A DNA stretch of 29,013 bases. Source: a virus. The position numbers were made by a program, and so were the translations under genes. Below, piece after piece: positions 3,936-28,136 of this stretch. The notes below the pieces were generated by a model, which saw only the letters and a list, made by a program, of their open reading frames with translations, did no database searches and was not told where the DNA came from. Location of the stretch: positions 1 through 29,013 of IMG/VR virus record IMGVR_UViG_3300025508_000115. The stretch is one strand, 5' to 3'. The first letter of the stretch is position 1. Every line of letters starts with the position of its first letter.

Positions 3936-4583
3936 CTATTTCTTGCTTTCTAAGAAGTACACTGCGTTATATCTCCAAGTGTCACTACAATATTTTTTAT
4001 GATCTTCAATATATCCTCCATGTGGTAGTTTACCATTAAATATAACACATCTATTAAATTTAGCGGGAATAATATCAAACTTGTTATTTGATATATCACA
4101 TCGTATATCAATTTCTTCTTCAATTAAATTCTGTGGCATGTCTTTGTATATTGCTGTTCCTCCAGAACATTGTTTATCTAAATAAATAAGTATATTAAAG
4201 CTATCGTCTATGTGGGGCCTAAATTGAATATGATTAGAGGGATCATTAATCCATTTGAATATATTAAATTTTATTGCGTCACAATGATAGTCTTGCAGAT
4301 TTAATATCTGTTTCAAAGTATTAATTGTTTTGTGTTCTTTATCTACACCATAATTAGTTAAGGGTATTTCTAATCTGCAGTCATAATACTCTTTAAAATT
4401 TTTAGTATCTTTATTTAATTTCCAATTAGGAACCCAAGTTTGTTTTAACATCTCGTATATTTGTTCAGAGTTTTTATAAAAATTATCAATGTATATATAC
4501 TCTTGATCTCCTACTTTGCTTTTTGCTACTTCTAAAGTATCGTTTATTTCAAATAGTTCATGTGTTAAAAAAGGATAAGACAT
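3936..4583 (-). CDS. 2OG-Fe(II) oxygenase-like protein, DUF6445-like, 215 aa
   Basis: I place the start at the ATG at 4583, which overlaps the upstream stop (TAATG); the frame is open for seven more codons upstream. Counting from this start, the double-stranded beta-helix signature is visible: H124-x-D126 in RPHIDDSFNILIYLD, a distal histidine H188 in GKLPHGGYIED, and R204 in WRYNAVYF, which would bind 2-oxoglutarate. The spacing suits a non-haem iron oxygenase and the pattern resembles the DUF6445 group. It is the last of four such genes in a row. Base composition is strongly AT-rich compared with the capsid genes. The substrate is unknown. This is the least canonical of the four, so catalytic activity is less certain. 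Confidence 0.7.
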   Translation of the reverse strand: MSYPFLTHELFEINDTLEVAKSKVGDQEYIYIDNFYKNSEQIYEMLKQTWVPNWKLNKDTKNFKEYYDCRLEIPLTNYGVDKEHKTINTLKQILNLQDYHCDAIKFNIFKWINDPSNHIQFRPHIDDSFNILIYLDKQCSGGTAIYKDMPQNLIEEEIDIRCDISNNKFDIIPAKFNRCVIFNGKLPHGGYIEDHKKYCSDTWRYNAVYFLESKK

Positions 4584-5137
4584 TAAAAAAACATTCCTTT
4601 CCATTTAGAAACAAATAAATAGTTGAAAGCTAAACTTATTCTTAAATCTTCATTTTGATTTGGAGATACACTATGTGGGCAATCATCATTAAATATAATT
4701 ATATCTGCAAACTGTGGTTGAATGTTTGTTTCGATATTAGATCTATGTTGAGAATGTAAATTTAAATTAGAATTATTATCACTAAGATAGACAACGCCAC
4801 TTAAATATTTTCTATAATCATCACTATGTATGTGCTCCTCTTGATAAAAATCTTTTTCATAAATATTTATCCAAGAATTAAAAATATATCCATTAAAGTA
4901 ATTATTTCTTAAATGCATAAAATTTTCAATATGGCTTTGTATATTTAATTTTAATTCATGTAACTCAGTGCAATTCAAAATATTGTCTGTAACATTAAAT
5001 GAAGTTCTTATTTTACAATTCCAACTTTTTTCTTTGTAAGAATTATTGGTTTTGTTAATAAAGTCAAAAGATTTTTTACATACTTCATCATTAATTTTAG
5101 AGTGATAATAATCTTCTTTATATAATGTTTTTAACAT
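4583..5137 (-). CDS. 2OG-Fe(II) oxygenase, 184 aa
   Basis: The protein carries a clear iron-binding triad. HIHSDDY gives H104-x-D106 (with H102 also present), H155 lies in FNDDCPHSVSPN, and R166 in LRISLAFNY would hold the 2-oxoglutarate carboxylate. The segment YLSGVVYLSD after the first histidines and the final RISLAFN strand are typical of the family with PF13759 (2OG-FeII_Oxy_5). Length is normal for that family. It overlaps the downstream oxygenase by one base. The coding DNA is extremely AT-rich: 4861-4920 has only 9 G/C in 60. The expected reaction is hydroxylation of a peptide, nucleotide or small molecule with 2-oxoglutarate as co-substrate; which one cannot be told from sequence. 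Confidence 0.85.
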   Translation of the reverse strand: MLKTLYKEDYYHSKINDEVCKKSFDFINKTNNSYKEKSWNCKIRTSFNVTDNILNCTELHELKLNIQSHIENFMHLRNNYFNGYIFNSWINIYEKDFYQEEHIHSDDYRKYLSGVVYLSDNNSNLNLHSQHRSNIETNIQPQFADIIIFNDDCPHSVSPNQNEDLRISLAFNYLFVSKWKGMFF

Positions 5138-5149
5138 TAAAGTTAATGT

Positions 5150-5743
5150 TTACTTAATTCCAATATTATTTCTTTTATCAAATTTCCATTCTTTATAAGG
5201 ACCTGATTTATCCACGTAATGAAGAAAAACAGTTATAAAATGATCGTGTTCACAATATTCTCTCCAATGTATTTTTTCCATTCCTTGAAAAATTACCGCA
5301 TTATTTGGTAACATAGAAAATTTATGATCAATTCTATATCTTTCCCAATCATTTTTATCACTGAAATATTTATACTCAGATTCTTTATCTCTCTCACCTA
5401 CAAAAAGATTATAAGGCTTATCTTGTGGTTCTGCTCCCAAACAAAGAGCTACTGTGTATTCGCACGATTCTCTATCGGTATGAACTTTAAGATCTGAGCC
5501 TTTATCATAAATTCTTAAAAAAGAATAAGTTGGGAAAAGTTCTTTACTAACATTTTTTTCTATAACAGGCTTACTAGCTTCTAAAAGAGTTTCCATTAAA
5601 AAATCACTATGTTCTTTTATTAATGAGTTTGATTGAGTGTCTGAGTCTATAAAACTCTTATTTTGATATTTTAATAAACAATAACTATAGGCAATATTTA
5701 AAATATCTTTTGGAAGAAATTCTTGAATAAAAATTGGTTGCAT
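5150..5743 (-). CDS. 2OG-Fe(II) oxygenase-like protein, 197 aa
   Basis: The ATG at 5743 is preferred to one at 5755, because it overlaps the upstream stop (TGATG) and has an AGGATGG ribosome site eight bases away. In the longer numbering, the jelly-roll signature is H92-x-D94 (KVHTDRESCEYTVAL) and H163 in EKIHWRE; R165 next to it may serve as the 2-oxoglutarate ligand. FLRIYDKGSDL just before the first histidine is typical of the family. It belongs to a different subfamily from its neighbours, so the four genes are not a recent tandem duplication. Substrate unknown. Confidence in the fold is good, in activity moderate. Confidence 0.8.
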   Translation of the reverse strand: MQPIFIQEFLPKDILNIAYSYCLLKYQNKSFIDSDTQSNSLIKEHSDFLMETLLEASKPVIEKNVSKELFPTYSFLRIYDKGSDLKVHTDRESCEYTVALCLGAEPQDKPYNLFVGERDKESEYKYFSDKNDWERYRIDHKFSMLPNNAVIFQGMEKIHWREYCEHDHFITVFLHYVDKSGPYKEWKFDKRNNIGIK

Positions 5744-6288
5744 CAAATAACCCATCCTATTAGTGCATATCTTGATCCACTAGTTATCTTTTTTACTTGA
5801 TGTGGAAACATAAAGTTTGAAGGAAAAATTATAGCATCGCCTGTATTTTGAGGATATTGAACTTGACCATCTAAAAAATCAAAAATAAATTCTCCACCAG
5901 TAAAAGAATTATTTAAACATATAGATATTGATAAATGTCTATCTGAAGTCTTCGAACTAAAATCAACATGATAGTCATAACCTACATCATATTGATTATG
6001 ATCATATCGTAACAAGTCGCAAGAGCTGATTTTATCGATGTAACACATTTTATGTTTCTTTTTGTATTCTTGAACGCATTCAATTATTTTATTTTGAATA
6101 TAATTTGAACAAATTTTTTGACCAAAAGAATTTGGTGTCATTACTGATTTGAAAGTGCAATTCCTAACTTTTTTATTAGACCCACCAATAGTGGTGGCAT
6201 CTTCTAATTTTTCATCAAAATAAGATATTATTTTTTTACAATAATTTTCTGGAATTAATTTTCTAACTTCTAGAATATAATCTTTCAC
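5743..6288 (-). CDS. Prolyl-4-hydroxylase-like 2OG-Fe(II) oxygenase, 181 aa
   Basis: First of the four oxygenase genes in transcription order. It shows the full signature of the P4H-like / 2OG-FeII_Oxy_3 group: H107-x-D109 in YDYHVDF, GGEFIF strand at about 131-136, the Gly-Asp-Ala pattern GDAIIFPS, H163 in MFPHQVKKI, and R173 in GSRYALIGW. It uses a GTG start at 6288, two bases after the stop of the 149-residue gene. The 60 bases at 5641-5700, in the adjoining oxygenase gene, have about 20% G+C, whereas the sampled capsid stretch 17221-17280 has 40%, hinting at a separate origin for this block. Likely cytoplasmic. Peptide hydroxylation is the usual role of close relatives, but the target here is unknown. 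Confidence 0.88.
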   Translation of the reverse strand: MKDYILEVRKLIPENYCKKIISYFDEKLEDATTIGGSNKKVRNCTFKSVMTPNSFGQKICSNYIQNKIIECVQEYKKKHKMCYIDKISSCDLLRYDHNQYDVGYDYHVDFSSKTSDRHLSISICLNNSFTGGEFIFDFLDGQVQYPQNTGDAIIFPSNFMFPHQVKKITSGSRYALIGWVI

Positions 6289-12210: not shown

Positions 12211-12421
12211 CTGGGTTGCCAGCTTTTTGTTTTCTACTGACAGCGGATCTTTTTTGACCTTTTGACATGGCTCTTGCTTTTGCTATAGGAACACATTTAG
12301 GATAATTTTTTCTTTTTTCTTTACCACTTCTCCCACACTTAGGATAAGAGCCATCAGATTTTTTATTAGCTATATCTACCCAGTTTTCTCCTACCCAAGC
12401 TTTAAGACCTTTTTTAGCCAT
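12146..12421 (-). CDS. DUF5872-like small basic protein, 91 aa
   Basis: Residues 5-45 hold GLKAWVGENWVDIANKK, then a Cys pair, C29 and C43, in YPKCGRSGK and YPKCVPIAKA; the rest is Lys/Arg-rich and ends in KKKTSRKNKA. This WVDI and PKC...PKCVP pattern is the signature I associate with DUF5872. The two Cys-containing turns may bind metal. Start overlaps the upstream stop by one base (TAATG). It is one of several highly basic small proteins in this block; such proteins in marine phages are of unknown function and could be virion or DNA-binding proteins. Confidence 0.75.
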   Translation of the reverse strand: MAKKGLKAWVGENWVDIANKKSDGSYPKCGRSGKEKRKNYPKCVPIAKARAMSKGQKRSAVSRKQKAGNPGGKPTMVKTIVKKKTSRKNKA

Positions 12422-12690
12422 TACGTTTTTTTAGTAACTTTTCTTTTACTTTCCATGACACCACCACATCCCTTAGCTATTCCACCTTGACCATAACTAG
12501 ATACCATCTTTCTTTCTTGAGAAACTTTATTAATCATACCACCATCAGCTTTTTTCTTTGGTTTCTTTTTACCACCTGGAGTTACTTTTCCACTGCACAC
12601 AGCACCTGCATACATATTAGCATATGCGCTAGGGTAGACTTTAAATTTCCTCTTAGCGGCCGCTTTACCTCTTGCACATAATTTACCCAT
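12421..12690 (-). CDS. Small Lys/Gly-rich conserved protein, 89 aa
   Basis: The first third (MGKLCARGKAAAKRKFKVYP, then SAYANMYAGAVCSGK) is the recognisable conserved segment of a small basic family frequent in marine phages; the rest is Lys/Gly-rich low-complexity (GGKKKPKKKADGG, GQGGIAKGCGGVM). Cysteines at about residues 5, 32 and 75. Net charge is strongly positive. It is coupled with the neighbouring DUF5872-like gene, and begins within the last codons of a 21-residue Cys-rich frame. Function unknown; internal virion or DNA-compacting role is a guess. Confidence 0.75.
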   Translation of the reverse strand: MGKLCARGKAAAKRKFKVYPSAYANMYAGAVCSGKVTPGGKKKPKKKADGGMINKVSQERKMVSSYGQGGIAKGCGGVMESKRKVTKKT

Positions 12691-19648: not shown

Positions 19649-20071
19649 TTAATAGATAGTTAGTACGTCTTTTGGATCTTTCAACTTTGCTAGTATTTCA
19701 TCGTCATTAAGAATACGTATTTCTCCACCTTCAATTCTGACTCTAGAGCCAGCATATTTAGCAAATACTACCCAATCACCTTTTTTACACCAAGGTCCAT
19801 TAGGAAATTTATTCTTATCAGCATAAGCATCAGAACCCATACTTAAAATCAAACCCACATTAGTAGTGAGTTGTTGTTCCTCGATGGCTTTGTCAGTAAG
19901 TAACAAACCACCTTTTGTCTTTTCTACCCCTTTATAAGGTAGAATTACCATTCTCCAACCTGTTGCTTGAGGAACTCTTTCCATAGCAGGTTCTTTGTCT
20001 TCTTCTTTCTTTTTTTCCTTTTTTTTGTCGTCGTTATTTTTTAAATAACTCGGTACTATTAGTTTACTCAT
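19649..20071 (-). CDS. GroES-like co-chaperonin, 140 aa
   Basis: Residues about 37-140 match a Cpn10/GroES-type beta-barrel: TGWRMVILPYKG, a mobile-loop equivalent at residues 51-65 (KTKGGLLLTDKAIEE), NVGLILSMGSDAY, WCKKGDWVVFAKYAG and IEGGEIRILNDDEIL. The first 35 residues form a Lys/Glu-rich extension that bacterial GroES lacks. Phage co-chaperonins (T4 gp31, RB49 CocO) enlarge the folding cage for capsid proteins. Here it sits upstream of scaffold and major capsid genes, which supports a role in capsid folding with host GroEL. It is the clearest host-interaction gene in the window. Confidence 0.88.
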   Translation of the reverse strand: MSKLIVPSYLKNNDDKKKEKKKEEDKEPAMERVPQATGWRMVILPYKGVEKTKGGLLLTDKAIEEQQLTTNVGLILSMGSDAYADKNKFPNGPWCKKGDWVVFAKYAGSRVRIEGGEIRILNDDEILAKLKDPKDVLTIY

Positions 20072-20253
20072 TCTTCTATCACCTTTTCTTTTAGTTCTTG
20101 ATAGTCTATTAATAAATGCTCTAAAGCATGTAATTTTCCAAGTTCATACTGATACTCCTCATAAGAACTCAGATTTCTACTCAACAAGTTTTCTTTTTGG
20201 TTTTCTATTGCTTGTTGAATAAGTTTTTTTACTTTGTAATCGAACTGTTCCAC
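20068..20253 (-). CDS. Small helical phage protein, 61 aa
   Basis: A 61-residue, charged, mainly helical protein (MEQFDYKVKKLIQQAIENQK, then YEEYQYELGKLHALEHLLI), with no membrane segment. The last four bases overlap the GroES-like start (ATGA) and its start is next to the holin stop. It resembles small helical proteins seen beside the holin in marine phages. Function is unknown; a packaging or assembly partner is possible. Confidence 0.65.
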   Translation of the reverse strand: MEQFDYKVKKLIQQAIENQKENLLSRNLSSYEEYQYELGKLHALEHLLIDYQELKEKVIEE

Positions 20254-20666
20254 TATTTCGTAATTTTCTTACTTTTTTCGAAGCTACGAAGCCCCGCCAT
20301 TCCGAGCAAAGCTGTGACAAGAGGAAATAAAGTCGACATGTCAAGCTCTGGAAGAGGTGCGTGTTCAACACTAAATGCTGCCAATATAAATACTAAGAAT
20401 TGTTTTAAGACATACTCCCAAAATATAGCTAGAGCACAGGACATTCCAATGAGGGGTCGCCATGATCTTTGCATAATACCACCAATACCTGTAGCAGTAG
20501 ACTTAGCGTCAGCTAAGTTGATATCCATTTGTTTGGAATTAATGTCGTTTTCTAATTGTTGTAATTTTATTTTGATTTGACCTTTTTCTTCTTCTGAAGT
20601 GTGGACACTGTCAATAACTTTACCGACAGTGTCTACTAAAGATCCACCTAATATTTTAGATAACAT
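20253..20666 (-). CDS. Three-helix holin (GTA/Holin_3TM type), 137 aa
   Basis: An N-terminal charged helix (VGKVIDSVHTSEEEKGQIKI) is followed by three hydrophobic segments: residues 71-86 after the motif RSWRPLIG, 87-101, and 113-128 (LFPLVTALLGMAGLRS), ending with FEKSKKITK. The SWRP, the central membrane pairs and the LxxLLGMxGLRSxEK ending are characteristic of the GTA/Holin_3TM family. It would form inner-membrane lesions for lysis. No endolysin gene is recognised in this window, so the partner enzyme must be elsewhere or not detectable. Confidence 0.85.
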   Translation of the reverse strand: MLSKILGGSLVDTVGKVIDSVHTSEEEKGQIKIKLQQLENDINSKQMDINLADAKSTATGIGGIMQRSWRPLIGMSCALAIFWEYVLKQFLVFILAAFSVEHAPLPELDMSTLFPLVTALLGMAGLRSFEKSKKITK

Positions 20667-21204: not shown

Positions 21205-21331
21205 TTTTCTTTTCTACTTTCTTTATTGTACCTTTGTTCTTAGAAGCGTAAAATACTTGCTCTCCTTTTTTCTTTCCATATGTCTTTTCCATGGATTTTT
21301 TTATTTTGCTACCCTTTTTTGTTAGAGGCAT
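21194..21331 (-). CDS. Small basic phage protein, 45 aa
   Basis: The ATG at 21331 lies within the last 23 bases of the portal gene and the frame is complete to 21194. It encodes MPLTKKGSKIKKSMEKTYGK, then KKGEQVFYAS and KNKGTIKKVEKKNGK. The YGKKKGE.VFYAS.NKG pattern is a family frequently seen beside terminase or portal genes in phages, often called a hypothetical protein. It is highly basic and has no membrane segment. The start is supported by the overlap. No function is assigned. Confidence 0.75.
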   Translation of the reverse strand: MPLTKKGSKIKKSMEKTYGKKKGEQVFYASKNKGTIKKVEKKNGK

Positions 21332-23702
21332 CTTTTCTCGCTTGATTCAAAGTTTGAGTAGTCATTTTATCATACTGAACTTCGGCACGTCTATCTGCAA
21401 TATCGTAATCTTTTTGTATTCTTGCTTGATCAATCGCTGTTCTTTGTTTCAATCTTTCAACATCTAATTGTAGCTTTGCTTGATCCACTTGCGCATCTAT
21501 TTGATCTTTTTGTGCGTCTTGTGCTAACTCTTGTTGTTTTAACTGTATTACAGGATCAGGTTTACCTTGGCCACTAAGTTGTGCTGATAATTGTTTTATC
21601 TCTGCCATAAACTGAGCCTCTAACTTAGCTACAACAGAGGCCATATCGTCGATAGGTTGTTGCATTGCCAAGAACTGAGCTTGTTCTTTTGCTTTGAGAG
21701 AAATATGTTCTAAAACGTGTTTTTGTAATTTCATTGCCATTGGAGGATTACCAAGAATCATTTGATTAGTTCCAAAGATTAAGTGATTCTGTATATGTGC
21801 ATCATGATCTTGTCCTTCATAGGCTTTCAGTAAATTACCATCGAGTAAATCAGCGTGCTCCGTGGCTGGATCTTTGGGAGCAGTTGGAGAATCTTTTCTT
21901 AAAATTTGATCAATGTCCTTGACTCCTAAAGCTTCATACATTCTCCTATAAGCTTCTTTGATATTGTGAATATCAGGAGCACTTTGTGCTAATTGTAATT
22001 CAGTTTGAGCTAAAGTTACTCTTTGAGTTGTAGAAAATATGTTAGGATCAGAAACAGGAAGAACATCTACACGATCACTGAAATCTTCAGCTTTGATAGT
22101 TCTATCTGCACCTTCGACAGAATACGGATATGTTTCAGGTAAGTAATCGGAGAAAACATCAAACAATAGTTTGAATTCTTTTTTCTGAGAATAATGACAT
22201 CTCTTATGGATGCCTGACATAACTTTTGAGCCCCTCTCTAATAATGCCATTGTTGTTCCCACTGGAGCATTTTGATTAGCATCACCAACCTGTAAATCAG
22301 TTATGGCTGCAAATCTCTGTCCTGACTGAACAACAAATCCTAGAAGAGAGTATAAAGTTTGAGAGGGTTCTTTATAAGGTAATGGCATGAGAGCATTTCG
22401 TAAATCACCATTAGGTGCATCAATATCCCTAAATTCTCCTGGTTGAATTGGCTCTGCGTCGTCTCTAATTTTAAGTCCTCTTGACTTAAATCCTGCTGGT
22501 AAATTTGCTAATGTACCTGCGTCTATTAACTGTCGTAACATTTGTGTTGCTGCTCTTGATAAAGCGCCTATCAAATGTATTAAACCTAGTCCATAAAAAC
22601 CTAAACCAGGTAAAAACTTGTAGTGAACAAAATATCTTTTCTTTAATTTTTTTTCGTCACTTTTTTCATAGTTTCTTCGAATACCTACTACCTTACCTGA
22701 GCTATCTTCAATGGTTACGATGTAAGGTATTTTAATTCCTGTGGGCTCATCATCCATGCCTTTATCTTCAAAACCTTCTAAGTCTAAAGATACATGAAAC
22801 TCATAAAGTCTAATTGACTTGTCCATATAGGAAGGCTTGATACCTTCCATTTGATCGTATTTTTTTTTGACTTCTGAAGGACTTGTTTCCCCAGGAACAA
22901 TTTCTACGTCTTTGTAAAAACCTGAAACTTGTTTTTTTCTAAAATCATTATAACTCATGTTAATGATTTGAGTAATTCTTTCACAAGAGTCTAAATCACT
23001 AGCCATATAGTTGACGACTAAGTCCTCTGCTGGAACAAACTTTGAGACAGCTCGATCTAACAATTCATCATAGTAAACTTTTTTAAATGTCGAACCTGCG
23101 AGAGGTAAATAAAATAACATTTGATCGAACTCAGGAGTGTAGTCTTCCATTTTGTTCATCAATTGATAGTTCATAAATTCTTGAACACGTTGTGACTGAG
23201 AATATTTTTCAGGAGTCTCTTCTCCCATGACTGCTGTGCGAACAGGACCGTTCGCTGGTAAGAGCTCTTTAAAAGCTGTTGCTTGAAACTGTGTAGCACT
23301 TTCAGCTAACAAAGGATGAGTGACACCACTAGCTCCTTGAAAAGGTCTTGTTCTTTCTTCGTACTTAGTTCCTAATAAATCTAAACCTTTGATATAAGAA
23401 TCTTCCCAATCTTTTCGAGAAGAACGATCGTTTTCTAATTCACTTAATAATTCATCGGATAGTTGATCTAGATCTCCTTCATCCATGACTTCAGCTAAGT
23501 TAGAATAAAATTCTACTTCTTCAGGAATCTCGGACATTGGATCAAAATCAAGTGTTGCTCCTCCGTCTTCATCCATTTCAATTTCTAATCCTTCAGGAGT
23601 AGGAATAGGTTGACCGTCAATCTCGACGGAAGTATCTGATTTAATGATTTCAAGTTCAGGTTTACCACCTAGGTCTAGAGACTTATCAATATTATCTGCC
23701 AT
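21309..23702 (-). CDS. Portal protein, 797 aa
   Basis: This large protein fits the portal of P22/SU10-like short-tailed phages. It has an acidic N-terminus (to about residue 95), then the signature THPLLAESATQFQATAFKEL and LPANGPVRT at about 128-156, the crown/wing-like middle (YLPLAGSTFKKVYYDELLDR, RYFVHYKFLPGLGFYGLGLI), LQVGDANQNAPVGTTMALLE, and a long coiled-coil C-terminus (residues about 690-797) rich in Gln, Ala, Asp and Lys. Length (797 aa) is in the range for these portals. It would form the dodecameric ring at the packaging vertex. A GGTGG ribosome site precedes the ATG. The next gene begins inside its last codons. Confidence 0.88.
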   Translation of the reverse strand: MADNIDKSLDLGGKPELEIIKSDTSVEIDGQPIPTPEGLEIEMDEDGGATLDFDPMSEIPEEVEFYSNLAEVMDEGDLDQLSDELLSELENDRSSRKDWEDSYIKGLDLLGTKYEERTRPFQGASGVTHPLLAESATQFQATAFKELLPANGPVRTAVMGEETPEKYSQSQRVQEFMNYQLMNKMEDYTPEFDQMLFYLPLAGSTFKKVYYDELLDRAVSKFVPAEDLVVNYMASDLDSCERITQIINMSYNDFRKKQVSGFYKDVEIVPGETSPSEVKKKYDQMEGIKPSYMDKSIRLYEFHVSLDLEGFEDKGMDDEPTGIKIPYIVTIEDSSGKVVGIRRNYEKSDEKKLKKRYFVHYKFLPGLGFYGLGLIHLIGALSRAATQMLRQLIDAGTLANLPAGFKSRGLKIRDDAEPIQPGEFRDIDAPNGDLRNALMPLPYKEPSQTLYSLLGFVVQSGQRFAAITDLQVGDANQNAPVGTTMALLERGSKVMSGIHKRCHYSQKKEFKLLFDVFSDYLPETYPYSVEGADRTIKAEDFSDRVDVLPVSDPNIFSTTQRVTLAQTELQLAQSAPDIHNIKEAYRRMYEALGVKDIDQILRKDSPTAPKDPATEHADLLDGNLLKAYEGQDHDAHIQNHLIFGTNQMILGNPPMAMKLQKHVLEHISLKAKEQAQFLAMQQPIDDMASVVAKLEAQFMAEIKQLSAQLSGQGKPDPVIQLKQQELAQDAQKDQIDAQVDQAKLQLDVERLKQRTAIDQARIQKDYDIADRRAEVQYDKMTTQTLNQARKDASNKKG

Positions 23703-23730: not shown

Positions 23731-25896
23731 TTACAACATGTCTATTTTTGGAATAGAAATAGGTCCTCCTCTTCGTTTTTTGTCAATTGGTTTTGTAATA
23801 AAATTAGGAGTTTGTACGTTAGAGTATTCACTGTTTAAGTCAGGAAGATTTGATAAAAAATTATTCAAAGCATCTGCACTATCTGAAGCGACATATCCTT
23901 TAAAATTACCTGAATCCCAATATTGAACTACATTGTTGAAATGTTTCATCAATATCTTTTCAAAATCTCCAGAAGTAACCTGTCTTTTATCCATTCCTTC
24001 TAAAGTTTCTTTTTGTTTTTTTGTCAAATCTTTTTGATCGTAATACTGTAATTTAAACTGATTCTTTTTATCCTCATTAGCTTTCCATTCAGGATCGTCA
24101 TAAGAGGTAAAAAACTTCTCTTCAAATAAGGCAATCCCTGTTGGTTTTAATTTTTCACTAATTAGTTTTACTTTATTGTTTCTTCCTTTATCAATGAACT
24201 GAAAAGTCATTTTTTCCGTAATTGCATCCAAAGAATTGTCTTCAATTAAATTGGCATCAAAGAAGTCTGTTGAGATTGGTTGTTTCTTTTCGTCCTTAAC
24301 ATCAAACGCATAATTGCCAAATTTAGATTTATCTGTGGTGAAAGCACTTCGAATATAGTAAGCGTTAGACATTTGTTGTTGATTAAATATTTTATTAGCA
24401 ACAACGTTAGGGTCCACAATAAATCCAGTCACATCTGGTCTTACTTCAGCAATCGTATTGATAAATCCTCCTTCCGTTCCACCAATGTCTAAGACATTAG
24501 CATTTTTAGGAAGAGACTTAATTAGTGCATCAGCAGTAGCGACTTGAGCTTCTTTAAAAGTAGGAATACTAGTGAAGATATGGTTTTCAAAATTACCACT
24601 TCTCTTTTCCTCAAAGATATTAAAAGTCTGTCCTATCTCTGATAGGTCGACAATAGGTTGATAGGTTGATTTGGGAGTACCAATTTCTCCCAACATGGTT
24701 CGAGTGAAAAAATCACTGCTTTGTTCTAGAGGCGCAATTTCAAAACCTTCTTCGGTTTTTAATACATATTCTCCCTGATCGCTTTGAGATCCTCGGTCGA
24801 CATCTCCTCTTTGGGTTTGTTCACTTTGCGCTTTGAGGGCTTCAATGGCTGTTTGGCCTTCTTCTTGGCGTGTTCCAGTAGTTTCTTCATTTGTTTTACT
24901 TATATCACCTTTTTCAGATAAAGACAAAGACTGTTCTTTAAAATAGTCCTCTCCTTTTTTTAATTCATCTCTTAAAAAATATAAATTTTCTAAAGCACTA
25001 TCGACATCTAATTTTCCTATTGAAATAGCAGCATCCTTAGCTGCTTGATGAATAGGGTTGTAGGTTGGTAGTTTTTCGTGAGCAGAAACATAGTTTTTCA
25101 AAAGAGAGTCTAAATTACTTTTATACTCCTCTACTGTCATATCTTTGTATTTTGCATTCCCTAAAATATTTTGTTCATGGTTTTTTAAAAAAGGCATTCT
25201 ATAGTCTTGGTCCTCTAACATTTTAATTTGTCTGTTCACTTTTTCTAAAACAGCTCCAGGAGAACCCTCTGTTATTCGATGACTTAAATCTCCGATATCT
25301 TCTAAAGATTTTGCTAAAACTCCACTATGAAACCTAGTGGCTTCTAACATTGCATCTTCTGGTTCTTGTCTTTGTTTTAGTCCAATTTGTTCGTAATAAA
25401 ACTTACTTCGCTCTTTTGGTTCTTTTGGAACATCTTCAGATGTCATAATGAAATCAGAAGGATCTCGTTTAGATTCTGTAAAACCTACGTCTTCTACTTT
25501 TGTCTTCTGTTCAGGAACATCAGGCGTGATCAACGGTTCAGGGACCGTGGTTGTTTGTGGTGTTGATAAAATTTGTCCGATTGGTATTTCCGAAGGAAGA
25601 GTAATGTTTTTATTTAGTTCTCTCATTCGTTCTTGTTCTTTTTCTATTTCTCCTAAATCAGGTGCAGAAAAAGTTCCTGAAGGAGTATCTCTTAAAGCGC
25701 TCACCGCAGGTGACGCAGCAAAATTTATAAGAGTATCGTATACATCATCTAAAGTTATGTTACCTAAGTTTAATTCGTTCTGTATTTTATTAGCTTGTTG
25801 CGATCCCACAGTACCCACGAGCAACGATCCGAGGACCGCGGGATTCTGTAAAGCTTTCATGGCTATTGGTCTTGCTACATTGAATAGTGATATCAT
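23731..25896 (-). CDS. Large protein with N-terminal hydrophobic region and methyltransferase-like domain, 721 aa
   Basis: The N-terminus (MISLFNVARPIAMKALQNPA, then VLGSLLVGTVGS) is amphipathic and hydrophobic, resembling internal or ejected virion proteins. Residues about 70-350 are charged and low in hydrophobics. A class I methyltransferase core appears at about 443-600: NANVLDIGGTEGGF (motif I, 466-478), GFIVDP, NSLDAITEKMTFQFID (motif IV-like, about 554-569), LKPTGIALFEEKF (about 583-595). The C-terminus ends in KKRRGGPISIPKIDML, a basic Gly motif of the sort seen at the ends of large marine phage virion proteins. Lying between the small terminase and the portal, this may be a protein packed in the head and injected, bringing a methyltransferase into the host. 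That is an inference. Confidence 0.75.
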   Translation of the reverse strand: MISLFNVARPIAMKALQNPAVLGSLLVGTVGSQQANKIQNELNLGNITLDDVYDTLINFAASPAVSALRDTPSGTFSAPDLGEIEKEQERMRELNKNITLPSEIPIGQILSTPQTTTVPEPLITPDVPEQKTKVEDVGFTESKRDPSDFIMTSEDVPKEPKERSKFYYEQIGLKQRQEPEDAMLEATRFHSGVLAKSLEDIGDLSHRITEGSPGAVLEKVNRQIKMLEDQDYRMPFLKNHEQNILGNAKYKDMTVEEYKSNLDSLLKNYVSAHEKLPTYNPIHQAAKDAAISIGKLDVDSALENLYFLRDELKKGEDYFKEQSLSLSEKGDISKTNEETTGTRQEEGQTAIEALKAQSEQTQRGDVDRGSQSDQGEYVLKTEEGFEIAPLEQSSDFFTRTMLGEIGTPKSTYQPIVDLSEIGQTFNIFEEKRSGNFENHIFTSIPTFKEAQVATADALIKSLPKNANVLDIGGTEGGFINTIAEVRPDVTGFIVDPNVVANKIFNQQQMSNAYYIRSAFTTDKSKFGNYAFDVKDEKKQPISTDFFDANLIEDNSLDAITEKMTFQFIDKGRNNKVKLISEKLKPTGIALFEEKFFTSYDDPEWKANEDKKNQFKLQYYDQKDLTKKQKETLEGMDKRQVTSGDFEKILMKHFNNVVQYWDSGNFKGYVASDSADALNNFLSNLPDLNSEYSNVQTPNFITKPIDKKRRGGPISIPKIDML

Positions 25897-26154
25897 TTAC
25901 TTATCCAAACACAATCCATTGTCTAAAACTATTTTCTCATTAGTCTCAATCCAAACTCGTGCACCACAGGACAAAGGTTTAGTAGGACTATAAATAACTT
26001 TTGCAACAACATTATTATTCTTATCAAAAATTTCTACATTCTTTGCGTAATCGTTTGACTTAGAAGTTTTGCAAGTAATCACAGGTTCTTCTAATCCATG
26101 TTTTTTATTCGATCGGATCTTGTGTTGATTGATATGAATTATTTTTTTTACCAT
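25897..26154 (-). CDS. Conserved small phage protein near terminase, 85 aa
   Basis: The sequence MVKKIIHINQHKIRSNKKHG, then EEPVITCKTSKSNDYAKN, VVAKVIYSP and CGARVWIETNEKIVLDNG, matches a small protein I recognise beside terminase genes in many uncultured marine phages. It is beta-rich, with two or three cysteines. It starts two bases after the small-terminase stop and ends immediately before the 721-residue gene. No function is known. It could be a terminase partner or a decoy of a host protein. Confidence 0.75.
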   Translation of the reverse strand: MVKKIIHINQHKIRSNKKHGLEEPVITCKTSKSNDYAKNVEIFDKNNNVVAKVIYSPTKPLSCGARVWIETNEKIVLDNGLCLDK

Positions 26155-26155
26155 C

Positions 26156-26722
26156 TCAATTACCTGTCATCACATCTTTATCATCATCAATAATGAGTTT
26201 GGTATCATGAGTTATACCATTCTTATCGTAGTTCTCTAAAATCTTTACCAACTCATCTTTACTCATATTTTCTAAAGGAGTTTCTGTTTGAACTTTGTTA
26301 TCGTAAAAACCAGCAACCTTACCTCTATTGACTTCAGCAGCCACGGCCGCCGAATAGTGTTTATGTTCTCGTGCTTCCTCTCTGATTTGTTTTAAGGAGG
26401 CCAAGTGAGACGCTGTCGATACTCCATACATTTGATGAAGATCTTGTTTCATCTCATGAATGGCCTCCACGACGAAAGGATTCATATGAGGGTTCAGTAA
26501 ATCAGTAGCAGTTTGACGTGCTCGATTTTGTGAATAGCCCGCGCGTCGCGCAGCTTCGGCAGCGGAACATTCTCCGAGTAAAACTTTGTGTACGTATTCA
26601 TAAACAAAAATCATCTGTTTCGGTGTTAGTTTTTGTTTTAGTCTTCTATCTTCAGGATTAATTAATTTTTTAATAGTATTCATATTTGCGTTTTCCAATA
26701 GGTTCTTCAGGCTCATCATCAT
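26156..26722 (-). CDS. terS: Terminase small subunit, 188 aa
   Basis: Residues 31-90 match a Terminase_2-type DNA-binding region: KLTPKQMIFVYEYVHKVLLG, then AAEAARRAGYSQNRARQTA and DLLNPHMNPFVVEAI, the helix-turn-helix that recognises the packaging site. The C-terminal half is charged and helical. Three ATG codons in a row at 26722 and another at 26683 (residue 14) could be the start; the second gives a shorter overlap with terL, while the first has an AAGGAAGG element upstream. It overlaps the end of terL, which supports coupled expression with the large subunit. Confidence 0.85.
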   Translation of the reverse strand: MMMSLKNLLENANMNTIKKLINPEDRRLKQKLTPKQMIFVYEYVHKVLLGECSAAEAARRAGYSQNRARQTATDLLNPHMNPFVVEAIHEMKQDLHQMYGVSTASHLASLKQIREEAREHKHYSAAVAAEVNRGKVAGFYDNKVQTETPLENMSKDELVKILENYDKNGITHDTKLIIDDDKDVMTGN

Positions 26723-28136
26723 ACAATGAAATGAACCTTCCTTGTCTATATCTTAACAGGGCTAAGGTGGTTGCGTCAACAAGATCATCATGCTCTCCAT
26801 AAGGAAAAGATGCGCATTCTTCTTGTACTTCTTCAGCCCAATCGATGTCAGGTCTCCAAACATGACCAGCTTCAAAAATAGGGGCAACAGAATTTAATCG
26901 TACATGCTTATCCATACCACGGTTCGGAGAGAAAGCTGTCGCGTACACACCAAATCGCCGTAGCTCCTGTATCAAGGGTGTCCCTGAAGCCTTGGCTTCA
27001 ATCATGACAGCATCAGGATTATAGAGACGTAGTTCTTCTTTTGCGACTTGTTTAAGCTCAGGAAAGTCCCAACGACCTTTTCTACAGTTTAACAAAATTA
27101 AATGTGTCTCTTCTCCTTCCTCAGGATAGAAAACTCCCCAAGTTGTAATAGCTGAGTAGTCAGCAGACTCTTTTTTTGAGAATGCTGTATCATAGCTTTG
27201 AATTTTAAAGGCACATTCAGGTGGATCTTCTTTTTCCCAAATGTTCCACCATTCACGTTTAATGATACTTGTACCGTCATGCGTGGGATTTTGTTGCCAT
27301 TGTGCGCTCCACTTAGTTGGAACAAGAGAAGCTTTCACTTTATCTAGTTCATTAAGCTTCCAATACTGAGGCCAAATAGGTTTTCTCTTATCTTCGTCAT
27401 CGTCGTCTAAAATTGCCGGGAATTCTATGACATCCCATTTGTCAGCTTTCAGATCTCCCATCTTTTTGATTAATTGACCAGTAAGATCCTTATCAGACCA
27501 TCGAGTCATCACGATAACAATGCTTCCCCCTGGTTGCATACGCTGTCGAGGACCAGATGTGTACCACTCATAGGCGTTATCCATTGCATTTTCAGACAAA
27601 GCATCTTGTTCACTATGTGGATCATCGATAATTAGTAGATCAGCGCCACGACCTGTGATCGCACCACCTACACCTGCCGCGTAATACTCACCTCCAAGGT
27701 TAGTTTCCCAACGTCCCGCCGCCTGATTATCAGTTCTTAGCGTAACATCAGGGAATATTCCTTTATATTCTTTGGTGTTCATCAAGTTTCTTACTTTTCT
27801 ACCAAATCTTATTGCTAATTCACCTGTGTGAGTCGCTTGAATAATTTTTAGTCGGGGATTTTGCCCCATCATCCATGCCGGGAATAAAAATGAGGCAAAC
27901 TCACTTTTTGTGTGACGTGGGGGCATGTTCACTATCAATCTTTTGTTCTTTCCTGTCATAAAATCCTGAAGTTTTTCTGCAATTCTAATGTGATGTGATC
28001 CTTCAACAAACTCAGGCCACACCGATTTTACGAATCTCATGAAATTTCCACGTGCATGCTCTTGTTCCACCTTCCTTCTAAGCAATACCATTGCCTTTAA
28101 TTGGTTTGGATCAAGTTTTGAATAGTCTATGTGCAT
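26670..28136 (-). CDS. terL: Terminase large subunit, 488 aa
   Basis: All expected motor and nuclease motifs are present. The ATPase Walker A-type loop is at residues 71-78 (MPPRHTKS), Walker B at 167-172 (LLIIDD), and coupling motif C at 211-213 (TRW). The nuclease domain has D316 (QSYDTAF), E380 (VMIEAKAS) and D451/D454 (EHDDLVDAT), matching an RNase H-like fold. Length is normal. An AGGAG site lies eight bases before the ATG. It drives DNA into the procapsid and cuts concatemers at the ends. It is preceded by an unusual GC-rich, hairpin-rich leader. This is the most certain gene of the window. Confidence 0.97.
   Translation of the reverse strand: MHIDYSKLDPNQLKAMVLLRRKVEQEHARGNFMRFVKSVWPEFVEGSHHIRIAEKLQDFMTGKNKRLIVNMPPRHTKSEFASFLFPAWMMGQNPRLKIIQATHTGELAIRFGRKVRNLMNTKEYKGIFPDVTLRTDNQAAGRWETNLGGEYYAAGVGGAITGRGADLLIIDDPHSEQDALSENAMDNAYEWYTSGPRQRMQPGGSIVIVMTRWSDKDLTGQLIKKMGDLKADKWDVIEFPAILDDDDEDKRKPIWPQYWKLNELDKVKASLVPTKWSAQWQQNPTHDGTSIIKREWWNIWEKEDPPECAFKIQSYDTAFSKKESADYSAITTWGVFYPEEGEETHLILLNCRKGRWDFPELKQVAKEELRLYNPDAVMIEAKASGTPLIQELRRFGVYATAFSPNRGMDKHVRLNSVAPIFEAGHVWRPDIDWAEEVQEECASFPYGEHDDLVDATTLALLRYRQGRFISLYDDEPEEPIGKRKYEYY

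Follow-up and report, generated by a model that had tools for sequence, protein, structure and literature searches.

The locus considered here raises the question of why a phage should place a large protein with a methyltransferase-like domain among its DNA-packaging genes, and whether such a protein is carried in the head and enters the host together with the DNA. The initial annotation had proposed the latter, with DNA, RNA or a host molecule as the target. We thus focus on the protein's position, its domain structure and its relatives, and on what these suggest about its delivery and its activity.

Genomic context of the cargo gene

The stretch analysed (the window, 29,013 nucleotides) comes from a marine phage. 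The reading frame is real and is open over exactly 23731..25896 on the minus strand, a strand that the initial annotation had left unstated, and it encodes a modular cargo protein of 721 aa. Its ATG, at 25896, directly follows the stop codon of a conserved 85-aa ORF (25897..26154, minus; phrog_8676, unknown function) that abuts it. Upstream of these lie the genes for the terminase small subunit (Terminase_2; 26156..26722, minus) and large subunit (26670..28136, minus), and downstream lies that for the portal protein (SU10_portal/phrog_1216; 21309..23702, minus), whose start is separated from the cargo stop codon by 28 bases. Read from right to left, the region is thus a compact head and packaging operon in the order TerL-TerS-85-aa ORF-cargo gene-portal. 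The gene had been placed between small terminase and portal; the portal is indeed next to it, but the 85-aa ORF intervenes on the terminase side. In a scan for promoters and terminators, promoter-like sites were no commoner than in shuffled sequences.

The nearest named phages in terms of backbone are HTVC027P, HTVC023P, 023Pt_psg01 and DSL-LC04 (portal about 50%, major capsid protein 70-76%). In the cultured phages HTVC027P, 023Pt_psg01 and DSL-LC04, the same slot holds other large proteins, that of DSL-LC04 with a PcfJ domain. Two further genes near the portal (19649-20071 and 20253-20666, minus) encode a GroES-like co-chaperonin, with 50% identity to a region of HTVC-type phages, and a small membrane protein that resembles holins. 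Elsewhere (3936-6288, minus), matches of the 2OG-Fe(II) oxygenase type are found for three genes (3936-4604, 4583-5137 and 5743-6288), which, with an unassigned 201-aa neighbour among them (5150-5755), occur in a low-GC island (25-29%) adjoining the tail genes.

A methyltransferase domain of CmoA-like fold

The class I methyltransferase core recognized in the initial annotation was found as described, with LDIGGTEGGF at exactly residues 469-478 (24463..24492, minus) forming SAM-binding motif I of a domain that spans residues 395-691 (23824..24714, minus). In family libraries, the METHYLTRANSFERASE domain matches Pfam Methyltransf_23 at 21.4 bits, which is below the cut-off, and phrog_4752, 'tRNA methyltransferase', at 3e-10; the latter label probably derives from the old name of CmoA. 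Outside this domain, the window protein has no Pfam or PHROG matches. A profile was needed for the PDB search, since a single methyltransferase sequence returned nothing useful; built from 19 divergent members, it matched the CmoA family from end to end (1im8, E 8e-12; 4iwn, 9e-11; 4gek, 1e-10), with the next PDB family appearing only at 0.045. Structure prediction, which had been proposed as a check, supports the same fold. In an AlphaFold2 model of the whole protein, block pLDDT is about 68-97, mostly above 85, over residues 401-690, and VIA-align gives a Z of 20.9 to CmoA 4gek (220 residues at an rmsd of 2.6), level with YecO, MM_2633, BelI and CysG. The closest folds in this comparison are those of CmoA, CysG/BelI and similar enzymes. 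The likeness to CmoA and YecO (4gek, 4iwn, 1im8) thus consists of a full-length profile match and of a fold that includes the N-terminal and lid regions, at about 17% identity to CmoA and, in the window, fused into a cargo protein.

The domain is a class I SAM-dependent methyltransferase, with a Rossmann-like fold, motif I and an acidic residue after strand 2. Across 32 aligned family members, D470, G472 and G476 of motif I are invariant, as are E561, F565, Q566 and F567 of the EKMTFQF motif (residues 561-567; 24196..24216, minus), K594, K627, M635, W660, N664 and F665, and position 495 is either D or E. Equivalents of CmoA D62, G64, E164 and K198 are conserved, the last being K627 of the pair K627-Q628 (24013..24018, minus). 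Loss of SAM-binding residues in homologues, which had been named as grounds for abandoning the enzyme reading, did not occur in any of the 32. The dN/dS between the window and its relatives is about 0.07-0.2, an approximate range, as several pairs have dS above 1. Taken with the invariant residues, this indicates that the methyltransferase domain is under purifying selection and that its SAM site is intact. The divergence of the cargo locus is synonymous-biased, and this bias, the dozens of homologous loci and the invariant motif residues together amount to more than chance.

As regards the substrate, the best conserved stretches include NHIxxSIP, NExKK...FK and K627-M635, which match the lid of CmoA. 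The helices of that lid lie over the cofactor of CmoA and obstruct the site at which tRNA and rRNA methyltransferases bind RNA (PMC3663124). By analogy, the strong conservation of the lid-matching stretches suggests that the substrate is a small molecule or a side chain instead of DNA or RNA. The earlier emphasis on nucleic acid is thus probably wrong, given both these stretches and the closest folds.

Constant ends and exchangeable payloads

The gene before the portal encodes a protein whose ends are constant and whose enzyme payload is interchangeable; in the window, this payload is an apparently intact CmoA-related methyltransferase. Scanning viral contigs with the methyltransferase-domain alignment yielded 66 loci, and a second scan, using the N-terminus alone as the query, found carriers in the same slot that lack the methyltransferase. 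When relatives are aligned, the first 70 and last 16 residues are kept and the middle changes; at least eight payload classes occur behind one N-terminus, in carriers of about 315-1390 aa. This exchangeability of the middle and methyltransferase modules had been missed in the initial annotation. Among the 71 distinct contigs with structural neighbours, the order terminase-carrier-portal is found in all 71, with both flanks present in 49.

The constant N-terminal segment (residues 1-70; 25687..25896, minus; VLGSLLVGTVGSQQA...LGNITLDDVYD) is retained in carriers whose payloads differ widely. Its hydrophobic character, already remarked upon, is borne out by a GRAVY of +0.38 over residues 1-60 and by predicted helices over residues 2-60, with pLDDT of about 75-89 from residue 11 on. 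It is followed by a low-confidence Pro/Thr-rich linker (residues ~71-159; 25420..25686, minus) that is conserved across many carriers. What had been described as a long charged middle contains an exchangeable helical module (residues ~160-328; 24913..25419, minus), modelled with pLDDT mostly below 60, whose homologues are found within other phage proteins: it resembles the C-terminus of Salicola phage SCTP-2 gp47 and parts of the giant phage proteins L123-L125. In relatives, this module is absent or is replaced by ART-like or GHEGRHRA modules.

At the other end, the constant tail KKRRGGPISIPKIDML (residues 706-721; 23734..23781, minus) is basic, as had been stated, but with two Gly is hardly Gly-rich. 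The tail usually takes the form (K/R/Q)GGx(I/V), and GGx(I/V) occurs in 48 of 48 methyltransferase carriers and in 11 of 14 carriers of other payloads, counts that take in KAQGGSI tails. The three carriers that lack it (L112, L113 and L117) indicate that the GG tail is not essential. The comparison of ends for shared signals shows that the ends are kept across payload classes, but a general enrichment of GGx(I/L/V) found no support: in shuffles over slot proteins and giant proteins, significance was reached in L124 and DSL-LC04 only, and we therefore claim no general packaging motif from enrichment. The 2344-aa giant protein in L124 (6001-10815 region) contains 13 GGx(I/L/V) sites against 2.5 expected in shuffles, many of them of the form (Y/F)AKGG(K/R/L)(I/V) and lying between modules, as if they were processing or linker marks. 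In the window itself, a basic 89-aa protein (12421-12690, minus) carries KKADGGMIN and YGQGGIAKG, which are similar to the GG motif at the C-terminus of the cargo protein.

Among methyltransferase carriers, the middle is empty in most, helical in the window type, ART-like in four (L006, L007, L014, L017) and marked by the GHEGRHRA motif in two (L015, L019). The non-methyltransferase carriers are more varied. L083 (1390 aa) combines a GNAT domain (Pfam) with an ART-like module; L084-L086 and L094 have a second domain in addition to a module that matches phrog_12251 in the two tested; L106, L107, L114 and L115 have only that second domain; L092 and L093 have a 570-residue payload common to the giant proteins L053 and L054; and L112 and L113 are further carriers in the slot. 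The 570-residue payload, of unknown function, is 35% identical between L092 and L053 and L054, which are giants that bear the methyltransferase. In the ART-like module, R, S and E residues follow one another as expected for an ART, and a Foldseek search with its model (pLDDT 72) gives ART-superfamily folds as the top hits and as most of the remaining rows, an assignment that is moderate, with a Foldseek E of 5e-3 at best and a Z of at most 6.2. The suggestion that the GHEGRHRA module is ParB-like was dropped, as it has no Pfam match. GHEGRHRA and ART-like modules are also joined in L131 (249-1961), behind a different N-terminus and without the methyltransferase, and in L009 (1-1940) a methyltransferase carrier is spread over several reading frames, possibly owing to sequencing errors in the contig.

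Compared with the window, TerL and portal have a median identity of about 90%, the N-terminus one of 70% and the methyltransferase one of 57%, the last figure taking in distant giant-protein loci. One relative (L043) shares 99% identity with the window in the portal but only 56% in the methyltransferase, and another (L081) pairs terminases of 99.8-100% identity with another carrier allele. Payload alleles thus differ on near-identical backbones, which indicates exchange between close phages. No PADLOC model matched among four carriers tested, and within the limit of our search (two alignments, by a pattern-plus-tblastn route) no cellular relatives were found in 84,980 species genomes.

Giant relatives and polyvalent proteins

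The same methyltransferase domain occurs inside proteins of 1,200-4,400 aa. In Pfam, some of these giants contain ART-PolyVal (E 3e-15) and LPD22, both above the curated cut-off, as well as GNAT and DUF7178, and in a viral structure library the methyltransferase matches an ART-PolyVal-like protein, at 41% identity over 135 columns. L064 has two genes for internal virion proteins (phrog_308, then phrog_418), followed by those for a 663-aa protein, a 2376-aa methyltransferase protein and a T7-type tail fibre; this order matches gp14-gp15-gp16-gp17 and puts the giant in the position of T7 gp16, the ejected core protein. In L067, the giant methyltransferase protein directly follows the portal. The terminase-portal slot is kept neither by Maribacter phage Panino nor by most giant-protein loci. 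Panino WZE63588 (1829 aa, 'tRNA methyltransferase') is the nearest annotated relative of the methyltransferase domain, at 29% identity; unlike the window protein, it has other ends and lies at the end of the structural module.

Polyvalent proteins are phage polypeptides in which enzyme domains of several unlike kinds, among them ART, GNAT and methyltransferase domains, are combined (Iyer et al. 2017, PMC5512222). Two features by which they are recognized are found here: a virion-gene context with a portal/terminase packaging system, here TerL-TerS-orf85-cargo-portal, and domains common to recognized polyvalent proteins, as ART-PolyVal and LPD22 occur in the same polypeptides as the methyltransferase of the window family. 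The window protein contains one enzyme and a helical module, and sister carriers combine ART with methyltransferase or GNAT with ART. The carriers differ from the surveyed proteins in being much smaller and in occupying one fixed slot, with a constant N-terminus, a mostly constant tail and one swapped payload. Furthermore, their methyltransferase is CmoA-like, whereas polyvalent methyltransferases are mostly DNA adenine enzymes of the EcoKI/TaqI type, nearly always fused to an SF2 helicase (PMC5512222). As for ejection proteins of the T7 type, the window protein has no recognizable homology (Pfam, PHROG) to gp14, gp15 or gp16, and it sits in the terminase-portal slot, whereas its relative in L064 takes that of gp16, a protein for which a basic C-terminus has been noted (PMC8954989).

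Alternative explanations

Because CmoA is the best match by both profile and fold, and phage CmoA genes are known, the domain might be a true carboxy-SAM synthase that supplies Cx-SAM for carboxymethylation of DNA or tRNA, as in Synechococcus phage S-B43, where a stand-alone CmoA serves CmoX in DNA modification (PMC12783734). We regard this as very improbable. The phage protein of S-B43 belongs to the CmoA family and is not fused, whereas the window domain is fused and lacks the arginine (Arg199) with which CmoA binds the carboxy-SAM carboxylate through a salt bridge (PMC3663124); the aligned column, Q628 in the window and adjoining the invariant K627, is Q, E, A, G or D in 32 of 32 members and never Arg. 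Together with a score of 16.8 bits against the CmoA equivalog TIGR00740, whose cut-off is 193.3, this led us to reject membership of CmoA, and plain SAM is therefore probably the cofactor. No CmoX-type C5-methyltransferase was noticed in a non-exhaustive look through the window, which is a fragment. The phrog_4752 label, and the existence of virion DNA methyltransferases of the DarB-like kind (PMC5512222), could instead point to an enzyme that protects incoming DNA or modifies tRNA, a role that seems to us improbable. The lid of a CmoA-type fold blocks the RNA-binding region (PMC3663124), and we rejected a DarB-like polyvalent DNA adenine methyltransferase, as the protein contains neither the EcoKI/TaqI-type motif NPP(Y/F) nor an SF2 helicase match.

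The delivery of the protein is open to other readings as well. An enzyme made with the head genes may act in the same cell without being injected; it could, for instance, affect host metabolism, modify the DNA before this is packaged or help to exclude superinfecting phages. Since the gene lies in a dense operon alongside those for terminase and portal, late expression is to be expected whether or not the product is packaged. We nevertheless consider this alternative unlikely, since methyltransferase relatives occur in giants with ART-PolyVal and LPD22, one of them in the gp16 slot, and since the payload varies in the manner of early-conflict effectors while the N-terminus stays constant. That the methyltransferase fold has become a non-enzymatic remnant or scaffold, a structural spacer in an internal virion protein, would suit the portal-adjacent position and the long low-confidence linkers, but is very improbable: the SAM-site and active-cleft residues are invariant in 32 of 32 divergent proteins, dN/dS is low, and a structural role would be odd for a domain that is dispensable and is replaced by other payloads.

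Proposed mode of action

Our preferred reading, to which we assign a probability of roughly 60%, is that the window protein is a head-packaged, co-ejected effector of the polyvalent type. The initial proposal of a packed, enzyme-bearing effector thus gains genomic evidence from the slot, the module exchange behind a constant N-terminus, the polyvalent-type giants and the relative in the gp16 slot. No virion proteome was found for the window phage or a relative, and the case for packaging is drawn from where the gene lies and from the domains that accompany it. The constant hydrophobic N-terminus and the short basic GG tail would address the protein to the head or portal and help it to exit with the DNA. 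Between these ends, the payload is interchangeable, and in the window phage it comprises the helical module and a predicted SAM-dependent methyltransferase of CmoA-like fold. Once ejected, the methyltransferase would methylate a small molecule or a protein side chain of the host early in infection, and the phage may benefit through a blunted defence or a redirected metabolism. T4 Alt and the P1 Dar proteins are enzymes that are packaged in the head and injected. The likeness to these lies in the proposed mode of action, and some relatives of the window protein have an ART-like module.

A broader reading, to which we give somewhat less than even odds, is that the constant N-terminus and the GGxI/V tail are packaging and ejection addresses of a head-to-host delivery chassis, into which unrelated enzymes (CmoA-like methyltransferase, ART, GNAT and others) are plugged and swapped between near-identical phages. 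The methyltransferase would then represent a class of injected effector that is new and that targets a small molecule or side chain. Such a chassis would exchange its payloads in the way that toxic ends are exchanged in polymorphic toxin systems.

Implications

Polyvalent proteins, including those with ART and GNAT domains, are already known (PMC5512222). A literature search, with subscription papers outside its coverage, found the locus undescribed, and in the literature searched we found no description of a CmoA-like methyltransferase in polyvalent-type proteins or of a compact carrier with fixed ends and swapped payloads beside the portal. If our reading is true, a methyltransferase class absent from the text of the polyvalent-protein survey (PMC5512222) would be added, and short candidate packaging signals would be gained. 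In relatives of HTVC023P-type pelagiphages, a single locus that is easy to read would hold a variable repertoire of injected effectors, and sequencing the interval between terminase and portal could then serve to catalogue the weapons that abundant marine phages use early in infection.
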